DNA of 64,000 bases, from positions 1,426,001-1,490,000 of the forward strand of contig NZ_LT629802.1 in NCBI RefSeq assembly GCF_900106045.1, written 5' to 3'. A program made the position numbers and the translations under genes. This stretch comes from Pseudomonas mucidolens (GTDB lineage Bacteria; Pseudomonadota; Gammaproteobacteria; Pseudomonadales; Pseudomonadaceae). Under the pieces are notes generated by a model that searched no databases, was not told the DNA's origin, and worked only from the letters and a program-made list of their open reading frames with translations. Numbering within the stretch: the first letter of the stretch is position 1; every line of letters starts with the position of its first letter. Of this stretch, positions 2,143-64,000 are shown in pieces.

Positions 2143-4539
2143 ATGAAGACAACCATTGAATTGCCTCTCCTGCCATTGCGTGATGTCGTTGTGTATCCGC
2201 ACATGGTTATCCCGCTGTTCGTGGGGCGCGAGAAGTCTATCGAAGCCCTCGAGGCCGCGATGACGGGCGACAAGCAGATCCTGCTGTTGGCCCAGAGAAA
2301 CCCTGCTGATGATGATCCTGGCGAAGACGCCCTGTATCGTGTCGGCACCATTGCCACTGTTCTGCAACTGCTCAAGCTGCCGGATGGCACCGTCAAGGTG
2401 CTGGTCGAGGGTGAGCAGCGCGGCGCCGTAGAGCGCTTCATGGAAGTGGATGGTCACCTGCGCGCGGAAGTGGCCTTGATCGACGAAGTCGACGCGCCTG
2501 AACGCGAGTCGGAAGTTTTTGTTCGCAGCCTGCTTTCGCAGTTCGAGCAATACGTACAACTGGGCAAAAAAGTCCCGGCTGAAGTCCTGTCCTCCCTCAA
2601 CAGCATTGATGAGCCAAGCCGCCTGGTCGACACCATGGCCGCGCACATGGCGCTGAAAATCGAGCAGAAACAGGACATTCTCGAGATTATCGATTTGTCT
2701 GCCCGGGTCGAGCACGTCCTGGCGTTGCTGGATGCTGAAATCGACCTGTTACAGGTTGAAAAGCGTATTCGTGGTCGCGTTAAAAAGCAGATGGAGCGCA
2801 GCCAGCGCGAGTACTACTTGAATGAGCAGATGAAGGCCATTCAGAAAGAGTTGGGCGACAGCGAGGAAGGTCATAACGAAATCGAAGAGCTGAAAAAGCG
2901 CATCGATACCGCCGGCCTGCCGAAAGACGCGCTGGCCAAGGCCACCGCTGAGCTGAACAAACTCAAGCAAATGTCCCCGATGTCGGCTGAGGCCACCGTG
3001 GTTCGTTCCTACATCGACTGGCTGGTGCAGGTGCCGTGGAAGGCTCAGACTAAAGTGCGTCTGGACCTCGCTCGGGCAGAAGACATTCTCGACGCCGATC
3101 ACTACGGTCTTGAAGAGGTCAAGGATCGCATCCTCGAATACCTCGCCGTGCAAAAGCGCGTGAAGAAGATTCGTGGCCCGGTGTTGTGCCTGGTCGGTCC
3201 GCCTGGTGTGGGTAAAACCTCGCTGGCGGAGTCCATTGCCAACGCCACAAACCGTAAATTCGTGCGCATGGCCCTCGGTGGCGTACGTGATGAAGCGGAA
3301 ATTCGTGGTCATCGCCGGACGTACATCGGTTCGATGCCAGGAAGATTGATTCAAAAGATGACGAAGGTGGGTGTACGCAACCCGCTGTTCCTGCTCGATG
3401 AAATCGACAAAATGGGCAGTGACATGCGTGGCGATCCGGCTTCCGCATTGCTGGAAGTGCTCGATCCGGAACAGAACCACAATTTCAACGACCATTACCT
3501 GGAAGTCGACTACGACCTGTCCGACGTAATGTTCCTGTGCACCTCCAACTCGATGAATATTCCACCAGCTCTGCTGGACCGGATGGAGGTGATTCGTCTG
3601 CCGGGCTACACCGAAGACGAGAAGATCAACATCGCCGTCAAGTACCTCGCACCCAAGCAGATTTCGGCCAATGGCCTGAAGAAGGGCGAGATCGAATTCG
3701 AGGTCGAGGCCATCCGCGACATCATTCGTTATTACACTCGCGAGGCCGGTGTACGGGGCCTTGAGCGTCAATTGGCGAAGATTTGCCGCAAAGTGGTGAA
3801 GGAGCATTCGCTGGAAAAACGCTTCTGCGTGAAGGTCGCCGCAGACTCCCTCGAGCATTTCCTGGGCGTGCGTAAATTCCGTTACGGGCTGGCTGAGGCG
3901 CAAGATCAGGTTGGCCAGGTCACGGGACTTGCCTGGACCCAGGTGGGTGGCGAGTTGCTGACCATCGAAGCGGTGGTGATTCCGGGCAAGGGCCAGTTGA
4001 TCAAGACCGGTTCGCTGGGTGACGTGATGGTTGAGTCGATTACTGCCGCGCAGACCGTGGTGCGCAGTCGCGCCAGGAGCCTGGGGATCCCCCTGGACTT
4101 CCATGAGAAGCACGACACGCATATCCACATGCCAGAAGGGGCGACCCCGAAAGATGGCCCTAGCGCTGGCGTAGGCATGTGCACGGCACTGGTATCAGCG
4201 CTGACCGGCATTCCGGTGCGCGCCGATGTCGCCATGACCGGGGAAATTACCCTGCGTGGGCAGGTGCTGGCCATTGGCGGCCTGAAAGAGAAATTGCTCG
4301 CGGCGCACCGTGGTGGTATCAAGACGGTGATCATTCCTGAAGAGAATGTGCGCGATCTGAAGGAAATTCCTGACAACATCAAGCAAGATCTGCAGATTAA
4401 ACCGGTTAAATGGATTGACGAGGTCCTGCAAATTGCGCTGCAATACGCGCCGGAGCCCTTGCCGGATGTGGTTTCCGAGATAGTTGCAAAGGATGAAAAG
4501 CGCGAGACTGACTCTAAGGAAAGAATTAGCACGCATTAA
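2143..4539 (+). CDS. lon: ATP-dependent protease Lon
   Basis: Soluble AAA+ serine protease that degrades misfolded proteins and short-lived regulators. The start MKTTIELPLLPLRD was chosen because a GAGG ribosome-binding site lies about 8 bases upstream and the family starts with this LPLLPLRDVVVYP segment. The product is 798 residues: N-terminal substrate-binding domain, coiled-coil around residues 190-290, Walker A GPPGVGKTS, Walker B LFLLDEIDKM, and a C-terminal protease domain with catalytic Ser in PKDGPSAGVGM and Lys in LKEKLLAAHRGG. It lies between clpX and hupB, as in other gammaproteobacteria. Confidence 0.98.
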   Translation: MKTTIELPLLPLRDVVVYPHMVIPLFVGREKSIEALEAAMTGDKQILLLAQRNPADDDPGEDALYRVGTIATVLQLLKLPDGTVKVLVEGEQRGAVERFMEVDGHLRAEVALIDEVDAPERESEVFVRSLLSQFEQYVQLGKKVPAEVLSSLNSIDEPSRLVDTMAAHMALKIEQKQDILEIIDLSARVEHVLALLDAEIDLLQVEKRIRGRVKKQMERSQREYYLNEQMKAIQKELGDSEEGHNEIEELKKRIDTAGLPKDALAKATAELNKLKQMSPMSAEATVVRSYIDWLVQVPWKAQTKVRLDLARAEDILDADHYGLEEVKDRILEYLAVQKRVKKIRGPVLCLVGPPGVGKTSLAESIANATNRKFVRMALGGVRDEAEIRGHRRTYIGSMPGRLIQKMTKVGVRNPLFLLDEIDKMGSDMRGDPASALLEVLDPEQNHNFNDHYLEVDYDLSDVMFLCTSNSMNIPPALLDRMEVIRLPGYTEDEKINIAVKYLAPKQISANGLKKGEIEFEVEAIRDIIRYYTREAGVRGLERQLAKICRKVVKEHSLEKRFCVKVAADSLEHFLGVRKFRYGLAEAQDQVGQVTGLAWTQVGGELLTIEAVVIPGKGQLIKTGSLGDVMVESITAAQTVVRSRARSLGIPLDFHEKHDTHIHMPEGATPKDGPSAGVGMCTALVSALTGIPVRADVAMTGEITLRGQVLAIGGLKEKLLAAHRGGIKTVIIPEENVRDLKEIPDNIKQDLQIKPVKWIDEVLQIALQYAPEPLPDVVSEIVAKDEKRETDSKERISTH

Positions 4540-50916: not shown

Positions 50917-51390
50917 ATGAACCACTTCACCCCGGAAAACTTTCACACCTGCCATCTCGGGCTTTTGCTGGGTCGCGCCGCGATTCTCAAGGACCGCATC
51001 ATCGACACCCACATGGAACCCCACGGCGTCACCGCCGCGCAGTTCAAGGTGTTGATCATCATGGCCCAGTTCGGCGTCGATACCCCCGCGGAGCTGTGTC
51101 GGCACCTGTCCTTGGACAGTGGCTCGATGACCCGCATGCTCGATCGCCTGGAGCAAAAAGAACTGTTGGCGCGCAAGCGTTCCGAACAGGATCGGCGTCA
51201 AGTGCAGCTTGTGCTCACGACCGACGGCCAGCGCCTGGCGGACATGCTGCCGCACATCGGCGCCCAGGCCTTGAACCAGTTGGCCGGTGCGCTGGAGCCG
51301 GGAGAGTTGCAGAGCCTGGAAAAAATCCTCAAGAAAATGCTCATAGCGGCCGGTGATCCCATCACCATTCAGCGAGTAGGTACTCAATGA
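50917..51390 (+). CDS. MarR-family repressor of the efflux operon
   Basis: 157 residues from ATG 50917 (MNHFTPENFHTCHLGLLLGR) with AAGGTG 9 bases upstream. MarR winged helix: TAAQFKVLIIMAQFGVDTPAE, LSLDSGSMTRMLDRLEQKEL, RSEQDRRQVQLVLTTDGQRL. First gene of a four-gene operon; it overlaps the outer membrane factor gene by 4 bases. Ligand unknown, probably a phenolic compound. Confidence 0.93.
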   Translation: MNHFTPENFHTCHLGLLLGRAAILKDRIIDTHMEPHGVTAAQFKVLIIMAQFGVDTPAELCRHLSLDSGSMTRMLDRLEQKELLARKRSEQDRRQVQLVLTTDGQRLADMLPHIGAQALNQLAGALEPGELQSLEKILKKMLIAAGDPITIQRVGTQ

Positions 51391-52844
51391 ACACACGCGC
51401 TTTTTGCCTGGTGCTGGTGGCCATGGGCATGGCTGGTTGCGCCAACTACAGTGGCCTCGACACCCAAGGCCAGCGCCTCGACGCGAACAACCTGCAGGTC
51501 GGTAAATCGCTGAGTGGAGTGACCCTGTCACCGGCGGCCTGGCCAACAGCCGATTGGTGGAAAAACCTCGGTGACCCGCAACTCGACGGCCTGATCCAGG
51601 AAGCCCTGCAGAACAGCCCCGATATGCAAGTCGCCAGCGCTCGCGCACATCAGGCCGAGGCTGTGGCCTACGCGGCCAACGCCGCTCGCAGGCCGACCCT
51701 GGATGCCAGCGCCGGCATCAGCCGTTCTCGCCTGGCCAAGGATCAGGACCCACGCGGCGAAGGCGATGCCTACTCCACCGTGCGAAACATCAGTGCCGGC
51801 TTCAACTACAACTTTGACCTGTGGGGCGGTCAGCGCGCCGCCTGGGAAGCCGCCTTGGGCCAGGCGCGTGCCGCCGAAGTCGACCGGCAGGCCGCGCACC
51901 TGACCCTGGCCGCCGATGTGGCCAAGGCCTACAGCGACCTGGGGCAGGCCCATATCATTCGTGACCTGGCCAATGAAGACCTGAAGCGCACCCGGCAAAT
52001 GCTCGAGTTGAGCCAGCGCCGCCTGAGTTCCGGTATCGATAGTCACTACCAGTACCAGCAGACCGAAAGCCTGGAAGCCAGCGCCGAATCGCAGTTGATC
52101 GACGCCGAGAAAAAACTGCAGAGCGCTAAAATTGCCTTGGCCGTGTTGCTGGGCAAAGGCCCGGATCGTGGCAATCAACTGGCCCGGCCGAACGTGCTCA
52201 AACCCGGCGCGGTCGCCGTACCGTCGGTGCTGCCCGCCGAGCTGCTTGGCCGTCGCCCGGACCTGATCGCCGCCCGTTGGCGTGTCGAGGCAGCCAGCAA
52301 GAATATTGTCGCTGGCAAGGCCAACTTCTATCCCAACCTCAACCTGAGCGCGAGTGCCGGTGCCGAGTCGTTGCTGGGCGATGCAATGTTCGGTTCCGCC
52401 AGCCGCTTCTTCAACATCGCGCCGACGATTTCCCTGCCGATCTTCGATGGCGGGCGCCTGCGGGCCGACCTTGATGCACGGGATGCCGACTACGACCTCG
52501 CAGTGGCCCAATACAACAAAATCCTGGTGCAAGCCTTGGGCGACGTGGGCAACACCCTCTCGCAACTGCGCGATACCGGTCGGCAGATCGAGGCCCAGCA
52601 ACATGCGACCGAGATAGCCCAGGCGTCCTACGACACCGCCGTCCAGCGCTACGGCTCAGGCATCGGCAATTATCTGGATGTGCTCAGCATCGAGCAGCAA
52701 CTGCTGCAGGCCCAGCGCCAATTGGCCAGTCTGAATGCCGAGCAGATCGATCTTTCGATTCAACTGATGCAGGCCCTGGGGGGCGGTTTCAACGCCGACA
52801 ACGTGGCGAGCGTCACACCGCCTCCAGCCATCCGCACGAAATAA
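51387..52844 (+). CDS. Outer membrane efflux factor, NodT/OprM family lipoprotein
   Basis: 485 residues. Lipoprotein signal with lipobox MAGC (VAMGMAGCANYSGL). Two OEP domains with long coiled-coil helices (VGKSLSGVTLSP..., LADVAKAYSDLGQAHIIRDL; second repeat with AELLGRRPDLIAARWRVEAA and GSGIGNYLDVLSIEQQLLQA). Forms the outer-membrane and periplasmic tunnel of the pump formed with the next two products. The frame overlaps marR by 4 bases. Confidence 0.93.
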   Translation: MNTRAFCLVLVAMGMAGCANYSGLDTQGQRLDANNLQVGKSLSGVTLSPAAWPTADWWKNLGDPQLDGLIQEALQNSPDMQVASARAHQAEAVAYAANAARRPTLDASAGISRSRLAKDQDPRGEGDAYSTVRNISAGFNYNFDLWGGQRAAWEAALGQARAAEVDRQAAHLTLAADVAKAYSDLGQAHIIRDLANEDLKRTRQMLELSQRRLSSGIDSHYQYQQTESLEASAESQLIDAEKKLQSAKIALAVLLGKGPDRGNQLARPNVLKPGAVAVPSVLPAELLGRRPDLIAARWRVEAASKNIVAGKANFYPNLNLSASAGAESLLGDAMFGSASRFFNIAPTISLPIFDGGRLRADLDARDADYDLAVAQYNKILVQALGDVGNTLSQLRDTGRQIEAQQHATEIAQASYDTAVQRYGSGIGNYLDVLSIEQQLLQAQRQLASLNAEQIDLSIQLMQALGGGFNADNVASVTPPPAIRTK

Positions 52845-52859
52845 TTCGAGGTACTTGCC

Positions 52860-54059
52860 ATGGCCACTGCCGAAACCAGCAACACCGCTGAGCAACCCCA
52901 GGACAACAACCCGCGCAAACGCAAAGTATTGCTGCTGGGCCTGGCACTGATCGTCATCCTCGGCGCCGTTGGCGTCTGGGGTTGGTATGAGCTGTATGGC
53001 CGCTGGAGCGAAAGCACCGATGACGCCTATGTGAACGGCAACGTGGTAGAAATCACTCCGTTGGTCACCGGCACCGTGGTGAGCATCGGCGCCGACGATG
53101 GTGACCTGGTGCATGCAGGCCAGGTGCTGATCAATTTCGACCCCAGCGACGCTGCGGTCGGCCTGCAAAGTGCCCAGGCCAATCTGGCCCGCACGGTACG
53201 CCAGGTGCGGGGTTTGTACAGCAATGTCGATGGCATGAAAGCCCAGATCAACGCACAGAAAGCTGAAGTGCAAACGGCCCAGGACAACTACAGCCGACGT
53301 AAGAGCCTGGCCCGGGGCGGGGCGATTTCCCTGGAAGAACTGTCCCATGCGCGGGACAGCCTGACCGCCGCCAACAACACCCTGACCAACCTTCAGCAGC
53401 AATTGAAGAGTACCAATGCGCTGGTGGATGACACCGTCATCTCGTCCCATCCGGACGTGCAGGCCGCTGCCGCCCAGTTGCGGCAAGCGTACCTGACCCG
53501 TGCACGCAGCACCCTGATCGCTCCGGTCAGCGGTTATGTGGCCAAGCGGACCGTGCAACTGGGGCAGCGCGTCCAGCCGGGAACGGCGCTGATGGCGGTG
53601 ATTCCGCTGGATCAACTGTGGATCGACGCCAACTTCAAGGAAACCCAACTGCGCGACATGCGTATCGGCCAGTCGGTAGAGATCGAATCCGACCTCTACG
53701 GCAGCGACGTTAAATTCAATGGCACCGTCGACAGCGTTGGCGCCGGTACCGGCAGCGCCTTTGCCTTGCTGCCGGCACAGAACGCCACCGGTAACTGGAT
53801 CAAGATCGTGCAACGGGTGCCGGTGCGCATTCACATCAACGCCGAGCAGTTGGCCGAACATCCGCTGCGGGTGGGCTTGTCGACCCTGGTCGATGTCGAC
53901 CTGCACGATCAGAGCGGACCGATCCTGGCCCAGCAGGCGCCACAGCAGGCGTCGTATACCACCAACGTCTACGAACGCCAACTGGCCGAGGCGGACGCGA
54001 TGATCGACCAATTGATTCATGACAATAGCGCCGCGACCGCCAAGGCTGCACAACGCTGA
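52860..54059 (+). CDS. emrA: EmrA-like membrane fusion protein
   Basis: 399 residues, one N-terminal membrane helix (about 22-42, KVLLLGLALIVILGAVGVWG). HlyD/EmrA fold: biotinyl-lipoyl segments (STDDAYVNGNVVEITPLVTG, VSGYVAKRTVQLGQRVQPGT), an alpha-hairpin (about 95-185) and beta barrel (AVIPLDQLWIDANFKETQLR). Links the inner-membrane EmrB-like pump to the outer membrane factor. GAGG precedes the start. Shares its last base pair with the emrB start. Confidence 0.93.
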   Translation: MATAETSNTAEQPQDNNPRKRKVLLLGLALIVILGAVGVWGWYELYGRWSESTDDAYVNGNVVEITPLVTGTVVSIGADDGDLVHAGQVLINFDPSDAAVGLQSAQANLARTVRQVRGLYSNVDGMKAQINAQKAEVQTAQDNYSRRKSLARGGAISLEELSHARDSLTAANNTLTNLQQQLKSTNALVDDTVISSHPDVQAAAAQLRQAYLTRARSTLIAPVSGYVAKRTVQLGQRVQPGTALMAVIPLDQLWIDANFKETQLRDMRIGQSVEIESDLYGSDVKFNGTVDSVGAGTGSAFALLPAQNATGNWIKIVQRVPVRIHINAEQLAEHPLRVGLSTLVDVDLHDQSGPILAQQAPQQASYTTNVYERQLAEADAMIDQLIHDNSAATAKAAQR

Positions 54060-55588
54060 TGAGCAACCAAGCCTCTTTCACGCCACCCAGCTTACTGATG
54101 GCCACTATCGGGCTGTCTTTGGCGACGTTCATGCAGGTGCTCGACACCACCATCGCCAACGTGGCATTGCCGACCATCTCCGGCAACCTCGGCGTGAGCT
54201 CGGAGCAAGGTACCTGGGTCATCACTTCGTTTGCGGTGAGCAACGCGATTGCCTTACCCCTGACCGGCTGGCTGAGTCGGCGTTTTGGCGAGGTGAAGCT
54301 GTTTCTGTGGGCCACCGTCCTGTTTGTGCTGGCTTCGTTTTTGTGTGGCATCTCCACTTCGATGCCCGAACTGATCGGCTTTCGGGTGCTGCAAGGCCTG
54401 GTGGCCGGCCCGCTGTACCCGATGACGCAAACGTTGCTGATTGCGGTTTATCCGCCGGCGAAACGCGGTATGGCCCTGGCGTTGCTGGCGATGGTCACGG
54501 TGGTCGCGCCGATTGCCGGGCCGATTCTCGGAGGATGGATCACCGACAGTTACAGCTGGCCGTGGATATTTTTCATCAACGTGCCCATCGGCATCTTTGC
54601 GGTGATGGTGGTGCGCTCGCAACTGAAAAAACGCCCGGTGGTCACCAGTCACCAACCCATGGATTACGTCGGCCTGCTGAGCCTGATCGTCGGCGTGGGA
54701 GCCTTGCAGATCATTCTCGACAAGGGCAATGACCTGGATTGGTTCGAGTCGAACTTCATCATCATCGGCGCGCTGATTTCGGTGATCGCGCTGGCGGTGT
54801 TCGTGATCTGGGAGATGACCGACAAGCATCCCGTGGTCAATCTGCGGCTGTTTGCCTATCGCAACTTTCGCATCGGCACCCTCGTGTTGGTCCTCGGTTA
54901 CGCGGGCTTCTTCGGTATCAACCTGATCCTGCCGCAATGGCTGCAAACCCAGATGGGCTACACCGCTACCTGGGCGGGCCTGGCCGTGGCGCCGATCGGC
55001 ATCCTGCCGGTGTTGATGTCGCCGTTTGTCGGCAAGTACGCCCACAAGTTCGACCTGCGTCTGCTGGCCGGCCTGGCGTTCCTGGCGATTGGCCTGAGTT
55101 GCTTCATGCGTGCCGGGTTCACCAACGAGGTGGACTTCCAGCACATCGCCCTGGTGCAACTGTTCATGGGGATCGGCGTGGCGCTGTTCTTCATGCCGAC
55201 CTTGAGCATCCTGATGTCCGACTTGCCGCCGCACCAGATCGCCGACGGCGCCGGCCTCGCGACCTTCCTGCGCACCTTGGGTGGTAGCTTTGCGGCGTCG
55301 TTGACCACCTGGATCTGGATTCGCCGGGCGGACCAGCATCATGCCTATATGAGCGAGCACATGAGCGTCTACGACTCGGCCACTCGTGATGCGCTGAATA
55401 CGCTGGGCGGGGCAGGGGACAAGGCTTATATGCAGTTGGATCAGATCCTCACCAGCCAGGCATACATGATGTCCACCGTGGATTACTTCACGTTACTGGG
55501 GTGGATGTTCGTCGGCTTGATCCTGCTGGTGTGGCTGGCTAAACCGCCGTTTGCGGCCAAGGCCGGACCAGCGGCCTCCGGCCACTGA
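54059..55588 (+). CDS. emrB: EmrB-like MFS multidrug exporter, DHA2 family
   Basis: 509 residues, fourteen predicted helices. DHA2 signatures: LATFMQVLDTTIANVALPTI, SNAIALPLTGWLSRRFGEVK and the motif C PIAGPILGGWITDSYSWPWI. Drug/proton antiporter that works with EmrA and the outer membrane factor. The start (ATGA) overlaps the emrA stop. The locus adjoins a polyketide cluster, so it might also export that product, but MarR-EmrAB operons are widespread without PKS genes. Confidence 0.94.
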   Translation: MSNQASFTPPSLLMATIGLSLATFMQVLDTTIANVALPTISGNLGVSSEQGTWVITSFAVSNAIALPLTGWLSRRFGEVKLFLWATVLFVLASFLCGISTSMPELIGFRVLQGLVAGPLYPMTQTLLIAVYPPAKRGMALALLAMVTVVAPIAGPILGGWITDSYSWPWIFFINVPIGIFAVMVVRSQLKKRPVVTSHQPMDYVGLLSLIVGVGALQIILDKGNDLDWFESNFIIIGALISVIALAVFVIWEMTDKHPVVNLRLFAYRNFRIGTLVLVLGYAGFFGINLILPQWLQTQMGYTATWAGLAVAPIGILPVLMSPFVGKYAHKFDLRLLAGLAFLAIGLSCFMRAGFTNEVDFQHIALVQLFMGIGVALFFMPTLSILMSDLPPHQIADGAGLATFLRTLGGSFAASLTTWIWIRRADQHHAYMSEHMSVYDSATRDALNTLGGAGDKAYMQLDQILTSQAYMMSTVDYFTLLGWMFVGLILLVWLAKPPFAAKAGPAASGH

Positions 55589-55615
55589 TGCCGCCGACGC
55601 GCGGGCGCTGCGCAG

Positions 55616-57871
55616 TCAGGCGGTGAGTGCTGTTTGCTGCAGGCGCTCATAGCCGCTGCTTAAGTGCTGCGCAGCGGCCAGCATCAAGCTGCTGGCGACT
55701 TCATCGACATGGCGCTGTCGCCACGGCTCCAGCGCGGTGCCTTTGACCCATTGGTTGAAGGCGCCCAAGGCGGGGCTGGTATGCACTTGGTAGTTGTAGA
55801 TATCGTCGCCGCCATCGACGGCCTGTTGGGCCGTGTAGTTGAAATACTCGCGAAACACATGGGCCATGCGGACTTTGGGATGGGCGCGTGCGCGCTGGAT
55901 TTCCTGGTGCCGACCTTGCGCTGTCAATTGGCTCAAGCCGTTGTTCCAGACCGCGTCAAGACTGCGCTTGAAAACGTCGTGCTCCAATGATCGGCGTTCG
56001 CTCTCGGGCAGGTCCTGTAGGCTCGCGTAATGGCTGTAGAGCAAGTACAAACGGTGGGCCCGTTGCGCGAACAGTGAGCCTTTCTTCAGCACCTGAACCT
56101 GACCGCCCCGTTCGAACAACTCACCCTGGGGCGCCCAGGTCGTATCGTAGGCGCTGATTTCCTGAAGTCGATCCTTCACTGCGTCGCAGGTGCCCGCTTC
56201 AGCGGTGCACTGATTGATCGAACCGGTCAGGATAAAATCCGCCCCCGTCATAAACGCCGCAGCGGCCGCTTCGGGCGAGCCGACGCCACCGGCTAGCCCG
56301 ACGCAGAGCGGGTGCGCGTAACCATGGCGCTCGCACAGTGCGGTGCGTAATTGCAGCACCGGCGTCAGGAGGGCAAGGGCAGGGACGCTGCAATTCGCCT
56401 CGACGCAGATGTCGTCGCTCATGGGTATTTGCCTGGCCCATAAGGCCTGGTCAGCGCTGATTGCGCCTTCCGCCAGCAGCAGCTGCAGCAGATAGGCGGG
56501 GGCGGGGCTCATGAACACCTCGGCACTCTCCAGGTGTGAAACTTTGGCGAGCAGTCGGTGCTCGCAGCGCAGGCGGCCCGAGCCCTCTCTGCTCAGCCCC
56601 TTGGCGCGAAACAGCACCAGCTCGCGGGTGATATCGCTAAAGCCTGACACTTCCAGGCAAGCGACGTGGCAGCGAAGGCATAGATCGACGATGGCGCGGG
56701 CTCTCTCCGGCTGATCGGCACTGTTCAGCAGATTTACGCCGTAAGGCTGGCCTGGCAGCAGTCGCTCCTGGGTCTGGCGCACAGTCTGTTCAACCTCGCT
56801 CAAACTCACGCCGTGGGTACCCAGGTAACTCATCATTGCGCCCTGGGCCATGCGCACCACCAACGCCGAGGTGGTGATGCCGTGGCCCATGGCGCCGGCT
56901 ACGTAGGCATATTTAAGTCCGTAGCGTGCGCGGAAGGCCTGGCTGCCCAAGCGCTGTGCCGCATTGGGCTCTGATTCTGACTCGGGCACGGACTCGGCGA
57001 CGATGACCGGCGTTGCTGTACGGCGAATTTCCTCGACCAGCTTGCTCAAGACCGTGCCATTGCTGCGTGCCGTATCGGCACCCACCTCATGGGTCACGAA
57101 ATCTCCCATGCCCAGCACATAGCGGATGCTCTCGACCCATTGCACCGGGCTGCTGATTTGGCGGCACAGCAGGTCTGCGACCTGCCCGGCGGGGTAGGGG
57201 CGCGCCGTCACATTCGCGATCACCGGAACGCGCGGATCCTTGAAGGCAAACCCTTGTACGAAGTCGGCGAAAGCTGCCTGGACCGGTTCCATATGCCGCG
57301 AATGGAATGCGGCACTGACGTTTAGCACGATGCACTGCCCGCCCTCGACGTCCAATCGTTGCGCAGCCGCAAGAATGCTCTGGGTAGTGCCCGCGATGAC
57401 GGTTTGCGTCGGTGAATTGAAGTTCGCGATGTCAATCCCTTCGAAGCCCGGTTCAGCAAGCAGCGCCTGTAAGTCTCGAACGTTCATCCCCACCACGGCT
57501 GCCATGCTGCCAGCAGGGGTTTGACTCATCAGTTGGCCGCGCTTTTGTACCAGTCGCAACCCCGTCTCGAAGTCGAAGCAGCCCGCAGCATGCAATGCCG
57601 AGAACTCACCGAGGCTGTGGCCGACCACTGCATCCAGTGGTTTTCCGAGTGTCTGCCATTGGTAGTAATGCAGAGCGTTGACCGTGTACAGCGCCGGCTG
57701 CGTGTACTGCGTCTGACGCAATCTATCGTCGGGGTCGTCGAGGCACAGTTGCTTGATCGAATAGCCCAGTACCTCGGACGCCAGTTCTTCGATGTGCGGG
57801 TAAGTTTTCCACAAAGTGTTACCCATGCCTTTGAATTGGGCGCCTTGCCCTTGAAACAGGAGCACGTTCAT
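55616..57871 (-). CDS. Trans-acting acyltransferase fused to PfaD-like enoylreductase (AT-ER) of a trans-AT PKS
   Basis: 751 residues. The N-terminal malonyl-CoA:ACP acyltransferase (about 1-285) has FQGQGAQFKGMG, the nucleophile Ser86 in GHSLGEF and His190 in SAAFHSRHM. From about 305 a PfaD/2-nitropropane dioxygenase-type FMN enoylreductase follows (YAYVAGAMGHGITTSALVVR, VGLAGGVGSPEAAAAAFMTG, FILTGSINQCTAEAG). It loads malonyl units onto PKS carriers lacking their own AT and reduces enoyl intermediates in trans. Divergent from the PKS gene. AAAGGA precedes the start. Confidence 0.93.
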   Translation of the reverse strand: MNVLLFQGQGAQFKGMGNTLWKTYPHIEELASEVLGYSIKQLCLDDPDDRLRQTQYTQPALYTVNALHYYQWQTLGKPLDAVVGHSLGEFSALHAAGCFDFETGLRLVQKRGQLMSQTPAGSMAAVVGMNVRDLQALLAEPGFEGIDIANFNSPTQTVIAGTTQSILAAAQRLDVEGGQCIVLNVSAAFHSRHMEPVQAAFADFVQGFAFKDPRVPVIANVTARPYPAGQVADLLCRQISSPVQWVESIRYVLGMGDFVTHEVGADTARSNGTVLSKLVEEIRRTATPVIVAESVPESESEPNAAQRLGSQAFRARYGLKYAYVAGAMGHGITTSALVVRMAQGAMMSYLGTHGVSLSEVEQTVRQTQERLLPGQPYGVNLLNSADQPERARAIVDLCLRCHVACLEVSGFSDITRELVLFRAKGLSREGSGRLRCEHRLLAKVSHLESAEVFMSPAPAYLLQLLLAEGAISADQALWARQIPMSDDICVEANCSVPALALLTPVLQLRTALCERHGYAHPLCVGLAGGVGSPEAAAAAFMTGADFILTGSINQCTAEAGTCDAVKDRLQEISAYDTTWAPQGELFERGGQVQVLKKGSLFAQRAHRLYLLYSHYASLQDLPESERRSLEHDVFKRSLDAVWNNGLSQLTAQGRHQEIQRARAHPKVRMAHVFREYFNYTAQQAVDGGDDIYNYQVHTSPALGAFNQWVKGTALEPWRQRHVDEVASSLMLAAAQHLSSGYERLQQTALTA

Positions 57872-58253
57872 TGCGCAGTCCTTTGGCGGAGCCGGTGGCT
57901 GTTTTTTTCAGCGCAAGGCGGCTTGATACATGAAGTTTTCAGCGTAGAAGTACTGACGAGTATTAACAAGCTTGAACTAAGCGGTTTCAGTGCGGCTGAA
58001 CTTTCAACGCTGATGGATAAAACTAAGTGGCGCGGTGGCCGAGTCCAGCGCTTTATAAAATAAGTTCATAACGCTGGCGGAACACATTGTTTAATAGTCT
58101 TACAGACTGTCATTGTTCACAGTATCTGTCGCCCATAAGCGGCGGTATATCTATTTGTGTGAAGTGTTTTCTCAACCATTCACGTACGTGACACCGTTGA
58201 ATTAACCGACGGCGTTTATTTCCTTCGCAGTCATTGAGCGACATGGAGTCAAC
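57872..58253. promoter_or_regulatory. Divergent control region between the AT-ER and PKS genes
   Basis: 382 bases, AT-richer than its neighbours, no convincing gene. It contains a perfect 12-bp palindrome TCACGTACGTGA at 58180-58191, about 65 bases before the PKS start, a candidate operator. No recognised lux box or rsmA-type motif was found. Confidence 0.45.
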
Positions 58254-61200
58254 GTGGACGTGATTCATGAAATGGCCAGTGGGTGGGTAGCCCTGCCCGT
58301 GCTTGATGCACTGAAACAGCAGGGCATTCTAGAGCTGTTGTCGCAGCATACGTTGCAGGTCAACGATGTGGCACAAGGTTGTGGCGCCGATGCCATGCGC
58401 CTGCGCGCCGCGTTGGGATTGTTGACGCAACTGGGCTATCTCGACAGCCCTTATCCCGGTCTTTATTCGAGCAACGCCCGAACGGCGCTGGCGGCCTCGT
58501 TGCCTGACGAGCTGGTGGCGCTGGGCAAGCTGTCATTGTTCGATGACTGCCTCACATCTGCGCAGTGTGCGGTCTGGCAACGCAGACTGATGCGGTGTAT
58601 CGGCGCAGACGCTGACGACGAATGTGCGCGGTTGTGGGATTGCGCCATCCTGGTGCCGCTGCTGGCGGGTTTTGGCTGGCTTGCGCCGGACACGCTGGAA
58701 CAGGCTTGCCCTCCAGGAGATTGCGCGCCGGTATGGCAAACCCTGCAGCAGCTGTTCGTGCACCGGGGCTGGGCAGAGCAGCGGCGCAACGGGTTTGCGT
58801 TGACGTTGCAGGGCCGCAAGATACTCTTGGCCAGCAGTTCGCTGGCGGTTGTGGTGGCCCACGCCCCCCTTTTGCAGAACCTGTCGGCGCTGCTGTTTGA
58901 AGGTGCGCCGGCGCTTGACCTGGAAACGGCCGCGAGCCCTGGCCTGTCGCGGCCCCCCGCCTCGACAGAGGCATGGGCTTATCAGCGCGTCGTCGAGGCG
59001 TTTAGCGGGCGGGCCTGGGTCGAACCCGCGGCGTGGTTGATGGAGGCTGCCGCTGCGGGGCAGTTTGTCGCACCGGGTGCCTGGCGTTCGATGCGGCAAT
59101 GGCTGGCGAGCGCCTGGCCGCAATTACCTGATGTCAGCCAACGGGCCTATACGGTGCGCCCCCCGGTAGTGGATGACTTGCCGCAATTGATTGAACTTGA
59201 CCGGCTCTCACAACCCTCAGGTTTACACACACCGCCACAGATTATTGAGTGGCGAGTACGTAACACACCGCAAACCCTGATGGTGTTAGTGGCGCAAGGG
59301 CGAATAGCCGCAGCCCTGCATGCGCAACGGATAGATGGCACCGATGCATTGCGTGACACCACGTATTCCCAGGTGCATCACTTGCACCAACCGGACGGTG
59401 TGCACCTTCAACTGCTCGGGCTTTATGTTCTTCCCGAGATGGCGGGACGCGGCTACAGCGACGCCTTGATCGAATGCATGTTGACGTATGCGGCCATGTT
59501 GGGTGATGTGCAGAGTGTCATCGGCGTTACACGCTGCGCCGGGTTTGTGCATCAGCGCGAATCCGTCAGCCTCGAAGACTATGTTCGCTCGCGCAATGTC
59601 CAGGGTGAAATGAGCGACCCGATGCTGCACTTTCATGTCTCACGGGGTGCCGTTATCCGTGAAGTATTACCCGGTTTCCGAGCGGGCGACAGCGACAATA
59701 ATGGCGCGGGAGTTTTAATCGAATATGCCTGGCCAGATATCGCCGTTACTGCACATGAGGCTGACAGCACTCCCGAAGTGGCAGCGCTGTCTCGCATTCA
59801 ATTGGAACAGCTCGTTCAACACGCGGCCTTGCAGGTATCAGCGGCCGGAAAGGCCGATGCTTACAGTCCATCCAGACCCTGGATGGAGATGGGCCTGGGC
59901 TCGTTGCAATTGCTGGAATTGCGTAGACGCTTGAGCAGTGAAACGGGCCTGAGGCTGGATGCGACATTCTTGTTCAGTTGCCCCACGCCTGATGCGGCAA
60001 TCGCTTATTTCGTTGAACACTTGGGTGTACCGCCTGGCTCAAGTGCGTCGGCATCGCGCGGTCCGAGCAGCCAGGCGGCTGTCGCCGAGACGAACGAGGA
60101 CAGCATCGCGATCATTGGCATGGCGTGTCGCCTGCCGGGGGGGATCAGTCATCCGGCCCAGCTTTGGACCGCGCTCATGCAAGGCCAGAGTCTGGTCGGT
60201 CCGATGCCGCCAGCGCGTCGGGCACTCAGGTCCGCTGAGGCGTCATCGTTCTCATGGCACGCCGGTTTCCTGAACGACATAGATCGGTTTGATGCAGGTT
60301 TTTTCCGTATTTCACCCCATGAAGCCCAGTGGCTGGATCCGCAGCAGCGTTTGCTACTGGAGGTGGCATGGGAGGCGTTGGAGTCGGCAGGCCTCTCCCC
60401 GCGATCGTTGCAAGGTTTGGCCAACGGGATTTTTGTCGGGATGATGGGCAGCGAGTACGCGCACCTGCTTGGCAGCAATCCGGCGGACGAACTCGAGGCA
60501 CATTTCGCCACAGGCGCGGCCTGTTCCGTGGCCGCCGGGCGGCTGGCGTATTTTCTCGATTGGCGTGGGCCGGCGCTGACGGTCGATACCGCGTGCAGTT
60601 CCTCGCTGGTCGCGGTGCATCTTGCCTGCCGCAGTCTACAGACCGGTGAATCGAACATCGCCCTGGCCGCGGGCGCCAATGTATTGCTCGATGACCGGGT
60701 CTTTCTGGCATTCGAGAAGGCGGGCATGTTGTCGCCGACCGGCCTGTGTCACACCTTTGACCAAGCTGCCGATGGCTACGTCCGTGCAGAAGGCTGCGCC
60801 ATGGTGGTGCTCAAGCGATTCTGCGAGGCGCAGGCCGACGGCGATCCGATCCTGGCGACCATAGCCGCCAGCGCTATCAACCAGGATGGCGGCGGCGCGG
60901 GACTCACCGCGCCCAATCCGCACGCCCAGCAATCGGTCATTGAAACCGCGCTGCTGCGTGCCGGGCTGCCCGCTTCGGCCATCAGTTATCTGGAAGCACA
61001 TGGCACCGGAACTCCGCTTGGCGATCCTATTGAAGTGCAGGCCGCCGCGCAGGTGCTGGGGCGGGAGCGCTCGGTGCAGCAACCGTTGCTGATCGGCTCG
61101 ATCAAAAGCCTGCTCGGCCATTTGGAAGCGGCTGCGGGTATCGCGGGGCTACTCAAGACCGTGCTGTCGATGCAGCACTCAATCATTCCCGGGCAACTGA

Positions 61201-64000
61201 ATTTTCACACGGCCAACGCCCACATTCCGTGGGACACGCTGCCGATCCGCGTGCCCCAAACAGCGCAACCCTGGCCTGATCCGGTGAAAAGGGCCGGGGT
61301 CAGTTCATTCGGCTTCAGTGGCACCAACGCGCATCTCATCGTGCAAGCCCATGACGCTGCCGAACCGGCGCTCGCCGCAACCTGCAAGCCGATGGCCATC
61401 GTGCTCTCCGCACGCACCGCCGAGCAACTCATGGCCCGCTCGCGCCAGTTGTTGGCTTTCTTGGAACACAGCACGGTGGACGTGGTTGCGTTGGCCTACA
61501 CCTTGCAGGTTGGCCGAGACGCCATGGCGATGCGCCTGGGGTTTATCGCGTCGACACTCACTGAAGTGAAAACCCGACTGGCGGACCTTTGCAGTGAGCG
61601 CCCCGGCGCTCAGACCCCGGAGCCAACTCCCGCGTCGTCGCTGGCGCAGAGCCTTGCACGCTGGTTGCACGGCGACGAGGTGGACTGGCACGCGCTGCAT
61701 GACCTGCCAGCGCCGCGAAAATTGGCATTGCCGACTTATCCCTTTGCCGATGAACGCTACTGGTTGCCCGAAGAAATCAGCGCCGCGCCGCAGCACGACA
61801 CGGCTTCAGCGCAATTGCTGACGTTGACCGCAGGCTGGGAGCGCATGGAAGCGTCGAGCCAGGAGCCGGTCGACGCAACTTTATCAACGTTGTGGTTGAG
61901 TGCTGACGCGACAGCCGCAAACTTGCCAGTCCAGTTCAACGCCTTGAAGTTTGATGAACCCTGCACGGCTGAACGGTTGGGCGCACGGTTGCAGGCCCAA
62001 GCGCGGTGGCAGCAGTTGGTCTGGCGGGTACCGGTTTCCGACAACGCGCCGATCATGGGGTTTCGCTTGATCCAGGCGCTGTTTGCCTTGGGTTATGACC
62101 GGCAACCGTTGCGCCTGACGGTGCTCACCGAACAGGCACACGCCCTGGAACCTCGCGAGCAGGTCGATCCATGTCACGCCAGCGTAGTCGGTTTGATGGG
62201 CACGCTGGCGCGGGAGTATCCCCATTGGCAGCTGCGCCTTATCGACCTGCCCGCAGGTCAGTTCATTGCGCCGGATACCTGGCTGCACCGCCAGGCGGAC
62301 CCGCAACGCAACGTGCAGATCTGGCGTGACGGCGTTTGGTATCGACATCGGTTGGTGCCCACCGAGCTGCCGCCCTTGGGTGTTTCGGCTTACCGGCGGG
62401 GTGGCGTCTACGTGGTCCTGGGGGGCGCGGGAGGCCTGGGTCGGGTATTCAGCGAATACGTTATCCGATGCTATCAGGCGCAGGTGATATGGTTGGGGCG
62501 GCGCGCCGAGGATGCGCAGATTACTGAGCAATGTGCTCGCCTTGGCACGCTTGGTCCCGCACCGGTTTACCTGCAGGCAGATGCCCGGGACCGCGAGGCG
62601 CTGGTGCGTGCGCGGGCGGCGATTGTTGAACGCTATGGCGTGGTCCATGGCGTGGTGCATGCGCCGATGGTACTGGCGGACAACCCGCTGGCGCGCATGG
62701 ATGAACCGAGCTTTCTGGCGGCGTTCCTGGCCAAGACCACGGTGGTTAATCTGGATGCCGTATTCGGTGCCGAGGGCCTGGATTTTTTTGCCAGTTTCTC
62801 CTCGATCGCCAGTTTCCTCAAGACCCCGGGCGCGGCCAACTATGTCGCAGGTTGCTGTTTTGTGGATGCCTACGCGCATAACCTGGGCAGTCGCGGCTAT
62901 CCGATAAAGCTCATGCATTGGGGGCCGTGGTTCGATACCGGCGGGATTTCCGCGCCCGGCTATCGCACCTTCATGCAGCAGATGGGGTTCGAGTCCTTGG
63001 GCTCAGACGAAGCGATGGCCGCGCTCGAACAACTGTTGTCGGGCCCGCTCGACAGCGTGGTGGTGGCGCGGGCGCGGCGTGATCGGCTCAACGACGTGCT
63101 CACTCCGGTCGCCGTCCAGGCGCGCCCCCAGCCCGCCGCTGCGCCGTCGTCACAGGTCGCTGCGGGCGGGCGCGGCTACCGCGCAGAAATGCACGGCATG
63201 AGCCTTGTCGAAGCCATCGTGTGGGATTTGATCGAGCAGGCGCGGACGGTCTCGAAGCTGCCGCGCCAGGCGATCAAAGCGACCGCGAATTTGAGTGAAT
63301 ATGGGTTTGACTCGATCCTGCTGGTGCGCCTCGCCCGACGGTTGAGTGAACACTACGACTTGATGTTGTGGCCGCCGCTGTTTTTCAGTTACCCCAGCCT
63401 GGACCAACTGGCTCAGTATCTCGTGCAATTTCACCAGCCGTTGATGGCCGCGTTGTATGAGCCGCCGGGCAGCGGCGGCGCACCTGCCGCGCCGGGCGCC
63501 GCGCCGACCCTCGATGCAGCTCAGGCGAAGACGGACGAACAGGCAGACGAGCCGATCGCAATTATTGGCCTGAGCGGTCGTTTTGCCGGCGCCAGGAACG
63601 CCGAACAGTTCTGGGAAATTCTCCGTGACGGACGTTCGGTGGTGCAGCCTTTCGCACCCGATCGCCTGGCAGACACCAGCCGTCAACGCTGGTTGGCCGC
63701 CATGCCCGGAGTGGCTGAGTTCGATCCGCTGTTTTTCGAAATTGCCCCCCGCGAAGCGGCGCTGATCGACCCGCGCCAACGGCTGCTCATGCAGGAAACC
63801 TGGTGTGCCCTGGAGGACGCCGCATACGGCCCCGTCCAGTTGAAGCAACAGACGATCAGCACGTTCGTTGGTGTCGAAGCCGGTGACTACGGGCGCCTGA
63901 TAGGCAGCCAGAACACCCTCACCGCGAATCACGACTCCATTCTCGCTGCGCGCCTGGCGTACTTCCTCGACTTGAGCGGACCGACGCTGGCGATCAATAC
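58254..64000 (+). CDS. Trans-AT polyketide synthase with GNAT loading module (3' end outside window)
   Basis: At least 1915 residues, open to the window edge. Start chosen at GTG 58254 with GGAG 5-8 bases upstream (reads [17 protein letters not shown]). Order: adaptor/methyltransferase-like region (about 1-270); GNAT-type loading domain (about 299-494); ACP1 with phosphopantetheine Ser550 in MGLGSLQ; KS1 (about 616-1030) with Cys781 in DTACSSS, His916 in EAHGTGT and GHLEAAAG; linker; KR (about 1280-1570) with LGGAGGLG and Tyr1530 in ANYVAG; ACP2 with Ser1687 in GFDSILL; KS2 from about 1766, cut before its Cys. No AT domain inside, matching the divergent AT-ER. The GNAT loader suggests an acetyl starter. 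Product not identifiable. Confidence 0.93.

Follow-up and report, generated by a model that had tools for sequence, protein, structure and literature searches.

The window analysed here, a stretch of 64,000 nucleotides of Pseudomonas mucidolens (G000:C1:1426001-1490000; the genome is a single contig of 5.85 Mb), carries at its right end a polyketide synthase (PKS) gene which, together with two partner genes, forms a compact islet. The PKS open reading frame begins on the forward strand at 58254 with a GTG codon, has GGAG upstream of it, and runs without a stop to the window end (58254..64000). Read on into the host genome, it ends at 72152 (window numbering), 8.15 kb past the window, and encodes 4632 residues in 13.9 kb. 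Pfam and domain searches assign it the order lid-GNAT-ACP / KS-KR-ACP / KS-DH-KR-MT-ACP-ER / KS-ACP, where ACP is acyl carrier protein, KS ketosynthase, KR ketoreductase, DH dehydratase, MT methyltransferase and ER enoyl reductase. These searches confirm the opening described in the original prediction, an adaptor, a GNAT domain and an ACP followed by KS-KR-ACP-KS without an acyltransferase (AT). The same prediction saw here the start of a giant line of the rhizoxin or pederin type, a claim which does not hold: the gene has three extension modules and then stops, and a single PKS protein, an AT-ER protein and a thioesterase (TE) make up the complete system.

Within the window, the gene encodes an adaptor that corresponds to a loading-methyltransferase lid without the S-adenosylmethionine (SAM)-binding core (58254..59126, residues 1-291), a GNAT domain of the malonyl decarboxylase type (59139..59729, residues 296-492), the loading ACP (59796..60023, residues 515-590, Ser550), KS1 (60093..61343, residues 614-1030, Cys781-His916-His956), KR1 (62121..63053, residues 1290-1600, with a glycine motif and Tyr1530), ACP2 (63186..63443, residues 1645-1730, Ser1687) and KS2, which starts at 63537 and runs past the window (63537..64000, residues 1762-2177), all on the forward strand. 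Further along the same gene are DH (residues 2330-2640), a second KR (2690-3010), a C-methyltransferase (3130-3420), ACP3, an ER of the MDR type (3560-3895), KS3 (3905-4330) and ACP4. Family searches of the entire PKS returned no match to AT families, nor to the condensation, adenylation or enoyl-CoA hydratase families. Three RhiE-like post-KS linker stretches are present, a mark of trans-AT modules. This protein and the five relatives described below (6/6) all keep the Cys-His-His of the three KS, the Tyr of both KRs, the KR1 glycine motif, a His and an Asp in DH, motif I of MT, two motifs of the ER and a Ser in each of the four ACPs. Both KRs of all six proteins also carry the Asp of the LxD motif, which by common rules leads to B-type alcohols and suggests that these KRs would form them.

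Divergent from the PKS gene, on the reverse strand at 55616..57871, lies a gene encoding a trans-acting AT (57002-57871) fused to a PfaD-type enoyl reductase (55619-56971). It matches Pfam Acyl_transf_1 and FabD_helical_ins as well as the NCBIfam models fabD (262.3 bits) and pfaD_fam (521.9 bits), both above cut-off, and the AT translation contains the motif GHSLGE. With the PKS devoid of AT and a separate AT-PfaD gene alongside, the earlier assignment to the trans-AT type stands. Behind the PKS, on the forward strand at 72247-73233 (window numbering), an ATG-initiated gene matching PF00975 encodes the TE, whose closest solved relative by sequence is the polyketide synthase chain 7r0x (1.2e-13); the G+C content at its third codon positions (GC3) is 63.5%. 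The cis ER and the PfaD trans-ER are both present although enoyl reduction could take place in a single module only, and one of the two may be idle. A genome-wide KS search recovered the three KS of the PKS gene and nine other matches in open frames of 391-461 aa, and found no second modular PKS. Elsewhere in the chromosome, two stand-alone KS-type genes are neighbours (L007 and L008, G000:C1:4466054-4468980).

The AT-ER, PKS and TE genes span about 17.7 kb between an EmrB-like gene and lpxH. Beyond the TE gene come an lpxH-like gene on the reverse strand (73354-74103, window numbering), glnS and cysS, assigned by reading translations without a family search. Seventeen of 18 other genomes of the genus with an lpxH match were compared, leaving out G007, whose match is in two pieces. 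The EmrB-like gene and lpxH are only 74-1090 bp apart in 11 of these 17 loci, and in the remaining six, which are more distant, the EmrB-like gene is absent from the flank examined. In relatives L077, L078 and L079 (genomes G017, G004 and G016), a NodT/EmrA/EmrB block directly precedes lpxH, and in the first two it is itself preceded by tamB sequence, as in the window. Since the EmrB-like gene and lpxH adjoin in relatives and are parted here by AT-ER, PKS and TE, the efflux genes are native and the cluster consists of three genes. The NodT/EmrA/EmrB-like genes (51387-55588) had been considered as an export system of the cluster; this was rejected, as in each of the three relatives compared over a longer stretch they run straight into lpxH with no PKS between. 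A mobile element was likewise considered and rejected: no tRNA was detected at the locus (L010), no Rfam match within window positions 55000-64000, and no direct-orientation 12-mer shared between the 600-base stretches at the two islet borders. The islet has 60.8% G+C versus 59.5% in the rest of the compared 112 kb, so these features give no sign of how it moved.

Five other proteins (P0291, P0296, P0299, P0331 and P0335), of 4309-4458 aa, have an identical domain order, with 52-55% identity over 4339-4410 aligned columns. They were found with the C-terminal part as query, among the best 120 of 1220 matches; the protein searches as a whole covered the best 120 of 1345, 1705 and 1220 matches, and further family members may exist beyond these. 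Two of the five come from named strains, P0299 from Pseudomonas sp. TMW22091 and P0335 from Pseudomonas sp. SIMBA_077, and P0291 is inferred to be from P. helleri. In P. helleri FSL R10-2339 (locus L082, genome G292) the order is the same, the AT-ER gene adjoins the PKS gene and the TE gene lies behind it. That cluster occupies a different chromosomal place, with unrelated flanking genes including LysR and AraC family regulators, and no DNA match to the P. helleri locus was found outside the cluster among matches longer than 200 bp. Its PKS frame is broken inside KS3. P0291 is intact at 4450 aa with the same N-terminus as far as compared, which makes an intact copy in P. helleri probable.

In a sample of 398 Pseudomonas genomes drawn from a larger group, 15 have any match at E <= 0.001, and only two, the window's genome and G292, carry the loader of this family. 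In five others the match lies in the GNAT part (30-33% identity), and these genomes encode different lines with different partners; the remaining eight matches are weak or concern mainly the ACP part. No new member was found among 194 genomes around P. helleri, many of them already in the set of 398, and a single-sequence scan of named genomes returned no relative. A tblastn search of plasmids gave four records, none of which reached 60% identity or covered 80% of the query. A GNAT match is present in 42 of 49 loci from named genomes, and only L082 has the order of this family within the flank examined. Steroidobacter-type loci L111 and L115 have the order GNAT-ACP-KS-KR-ACP-KS-DH-KR-MT-KS, with a loader identity of 30-32%. 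A different GNAT line is shared by four other Pseudomonas genomes (L032, L033, L034 and L036), where an MT-core-like-GNAT-KS protein of 2330-2365 aa is encoded beside two others, one with two AT matches and one bearing a TE. Furthermore, a partial protein labelled Burkholderia cepacia (P0244) shares MT-ACP-ER-KS.

The loader itself has a GNAT-like fold ahead of the ACP, recognised by domain search and by comparison with solved structures. Residues T426, H461 and R476 are the equivalents of T355, H389 and R404 of CurA, which we take from the CurA work to have catalytic roles. Across 59 aligned GNAT rows, T or S occupies the first of these positions in 59, H the second in 59 and R the third in 58; the rows exclude P0001 (a copy of the query), matches of 170 positions or fewer and those with E >1e-10, and include both L082 and G292, taken as the same record. 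The conservation of these residues is in line with the starter originally proposed, and acetyl supplied by malonyl decarboxylation is the likely reading of the loader.

The adaptor ahead of the GNAT domain seems to have been lost stepwise in this family. Aligned with 14 rows from named loci, it retains the lid as well as the segment immediately ahead of GNAT, without the MT core, which is present, in full or in part, in 13 of the 14, L082 being the exception. In P0291, P0299 and P0296 only the first ~80 residues of the adaptor are kept, and this half lid matches that of the window's protein in pairwise BLASTP (E of 9e-7, 6e-7 and 5e-9, respectively) and in a profile comparison (probability 93%). 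P0331 and P0335 have only ~31 residues ahead of GNAT. In a tree of the GNAT-ACP-KS1 region, midpoint-rooted for drawing only, the proteins with a full MT are outermost, followed by the window's protein, and the half-lid group is sister to the no-lid group, with starred supports. Stepwise loss is the simplest reading of this order, the root not being proven. It is tempting, if rather doubtful, to go further and propose that these one-protein trans-AT lines are a family of their own in Pseudomonas, in which the MT core was lost once and the lid is being shed in steps (a core-less lid here, half of it in the P. helleri type, none in the SIMBA_077 type), in which a uniform Trp-to-Gln change in the GNAT domain marks an altered starter choice or mechanism, and whose product would be a small methyl-branched metabolite, perhaps volatile.

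Evidence on the substrates of the individual modules came from the nearest neighbours of each KS, drawn from a pool of 792 KS of the proteins returned by the searches; the pool is biased towards relatives and leaves out stretches of <=350 positions, P0001 and proteins with any AT match. The KS nearest to KS1 all or nearly all follow GNAT-ACP loaders (first 10 rows), and the loader therefore seems to be in use. Of the 20 non-family KS most similar to KS2, 13 follow KR modules without DH; the corresponding 20 for KS3 follow C-methylating modules in 18 cases and ER modules in six. These labels agree in part with the chemistry predicted for the upstream modules, and they make a C-methyl likely and full reduction only moderately likely.

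We consider this locus to be a complete compact trans-AT polyketide islet with an acetyl-primed, C-methylated tetraketide as its likely product, and assign this reading, predicted from sequence, a probability of roughly 0.7. The trans-AT would load malonyl onto the four ACPs, and GNAT would decarboxylate the unit on ACP1 to acetyl. Module 1 (KS-KR-ACP) would then give 3-hydroxybutyryl, and module 2 (KS-DH-KR-MT-ACP-ER) would extend and C-methylate it and, with both DH and ER active, reduce it to 5-hydroxy-2-methylhexanoyl. In module 3 (KS-ACP), which has no KR, the last unit would be added to yield 7-hydroxy-4-methyl-3-oxooctanoyl-ACP. No place for the chain other than the TE was found after ACP4, and the adjacent TE would be expected to release it by hydrolysis or cyclisation, as a beta-keto acid or an eight-membered lactone. 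The acid could cyclise to a six-membered hemiketal, or decarboxylate to 6-hydroxy-3-methylheptan-2-one.

Several observations weigh against this proposal. Domain-to-product rules often fail in trans-AT lines, and the TE, being stand-alone, could have an editing role. The KS2 neighbours that do not follow KR modules without DH (7/20) follow ACP only (five), MT-ACP (one) or DH-ACP (one). Moreover, 13 of the 20 KS3 neighbours, near-copies from Paenibacillus, follow MT-ACP modules without a cis ER, and DH is the least conserved domain, with 37-40% identity to P0291, P0296 and P0299 versus 57-72% for the other catalytic domains. The last two points would fit a line of the same build with an inactive DH or cis ER; the chain would then remain hydroxylated or unsaturated and the TE would form a six-membered, dihydropyrone-type lactone. 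We regard this as possible, with the odds clearly against it, given that the DH, ER and KR residues are kept in all six proteins and that the PfaD trans-ER is also present. Acetyl priming is likewise not certain, because the Trp found at the CurA W249 position in 47 of the 59 GNAT rows is Gln (Q320) here, as in all eight rows of the family (six distinct proteins). Such a GNAT, apparently in use according to the KS1 neighbours, might pick a different starter, such as methylmalonyl or a preformed acyl group; this is unlikely, as the decarboxylase-site T, H and R are kept, the AT is of the FabD/malonyl type, and the same position tolerates change, being Glu in Mycoavidus proteins and Thr in P0028.

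Two further readings concern the locus as a whole. The broken P. helleri frame could suggest a decayed remnant without function, which is very improbable here in view of a 13.9 kb open frame, intact catalytic motifs where examined, and a domain order kept by all five relatives. The start of a large rhizoxin-, pederin- or oocydin-like line is less credible still. Loaders of this type do open such lines, e.g. the GNAT starter module of labrenzin PKS4 (PMC6855096), but the genome already contradicts it, with the gene end after module 3, the TE gene and the genes read as lpxH, glnS and cysS that follow, and the outcome of the KS search.

With one PKS, one AT and one TE, the system is small enough for testing as a whole. 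It provides a natural Trp-to-Gln variant of a GNAT decarboxylase, and its relatives form a natural lid series which bears on the question of whether GNAT priming requires the loading-methyltransferase lid. If the prediction is true, the islet would make a new, small metabolite of Pseudomonas.

The likeness to CurA (curacin), GphF (gephyronic acid) and LynB1 (lyngbyapeptin B) extends to the GNAT fold, the Thr/His/Arg equivalents and the lid/adaptor-GNAT-ACP order. LynB1 has a cis AT, whereas this line is trans-AT, and the CurA Trp, also present in GphF, is replaced by Gln. The lid and GNAT also align with the MT-GNAT didomains of SxtA and AprA (7uci, 6b39), which, unlike the window's protein, have a metal- and SAM-binding MT core. 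Among proteins returned by the searches, P0108 (labelled P. aeruginosa, 5509 aa), with a GNAT loader, 57% identity in KS1 and a DH-KR-MT-ACP-ER-KS block, looks like a longer cousin, and Mycoavidus P0002 has a GNAT loader and 65% identity in KS1; both differ in having a full MT core, more modules and a first module without a KR match. The line is also too short for the rhizoxin, oocydin and mupirocin clusters. Neither the best 120 rows of each protein search nor the 49 named-genome loci include a match to a known cluster or assigned compound, which agrees with the unassigned compound allowed for originally, and no paper on the cluster was found among the matches listed, up to 20 a search, in the open-licence literature. 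The labrenzin/pederin family shares the GNAT starter module in a trans-AT line; PMC6855096 describes it as a set of three proteins of the PKS/NRPS type that include C, A, PCP, ECH and PS domains, whereas the family searches gave no sign of a PKS/NRPS hybrid with beta-branching domains in the PKS of the present three-gene islet. According to PMC7930024, Pseudomonas is one of the genera that have trans-AT PKS families with no characterised member, and the family described here may already be an unnamed node there. What emerges is an uncharacterised line of a known loader and trans-AT kind, distinguished by two variant features, the GNAT Gln and the apparently eroding adaptor.

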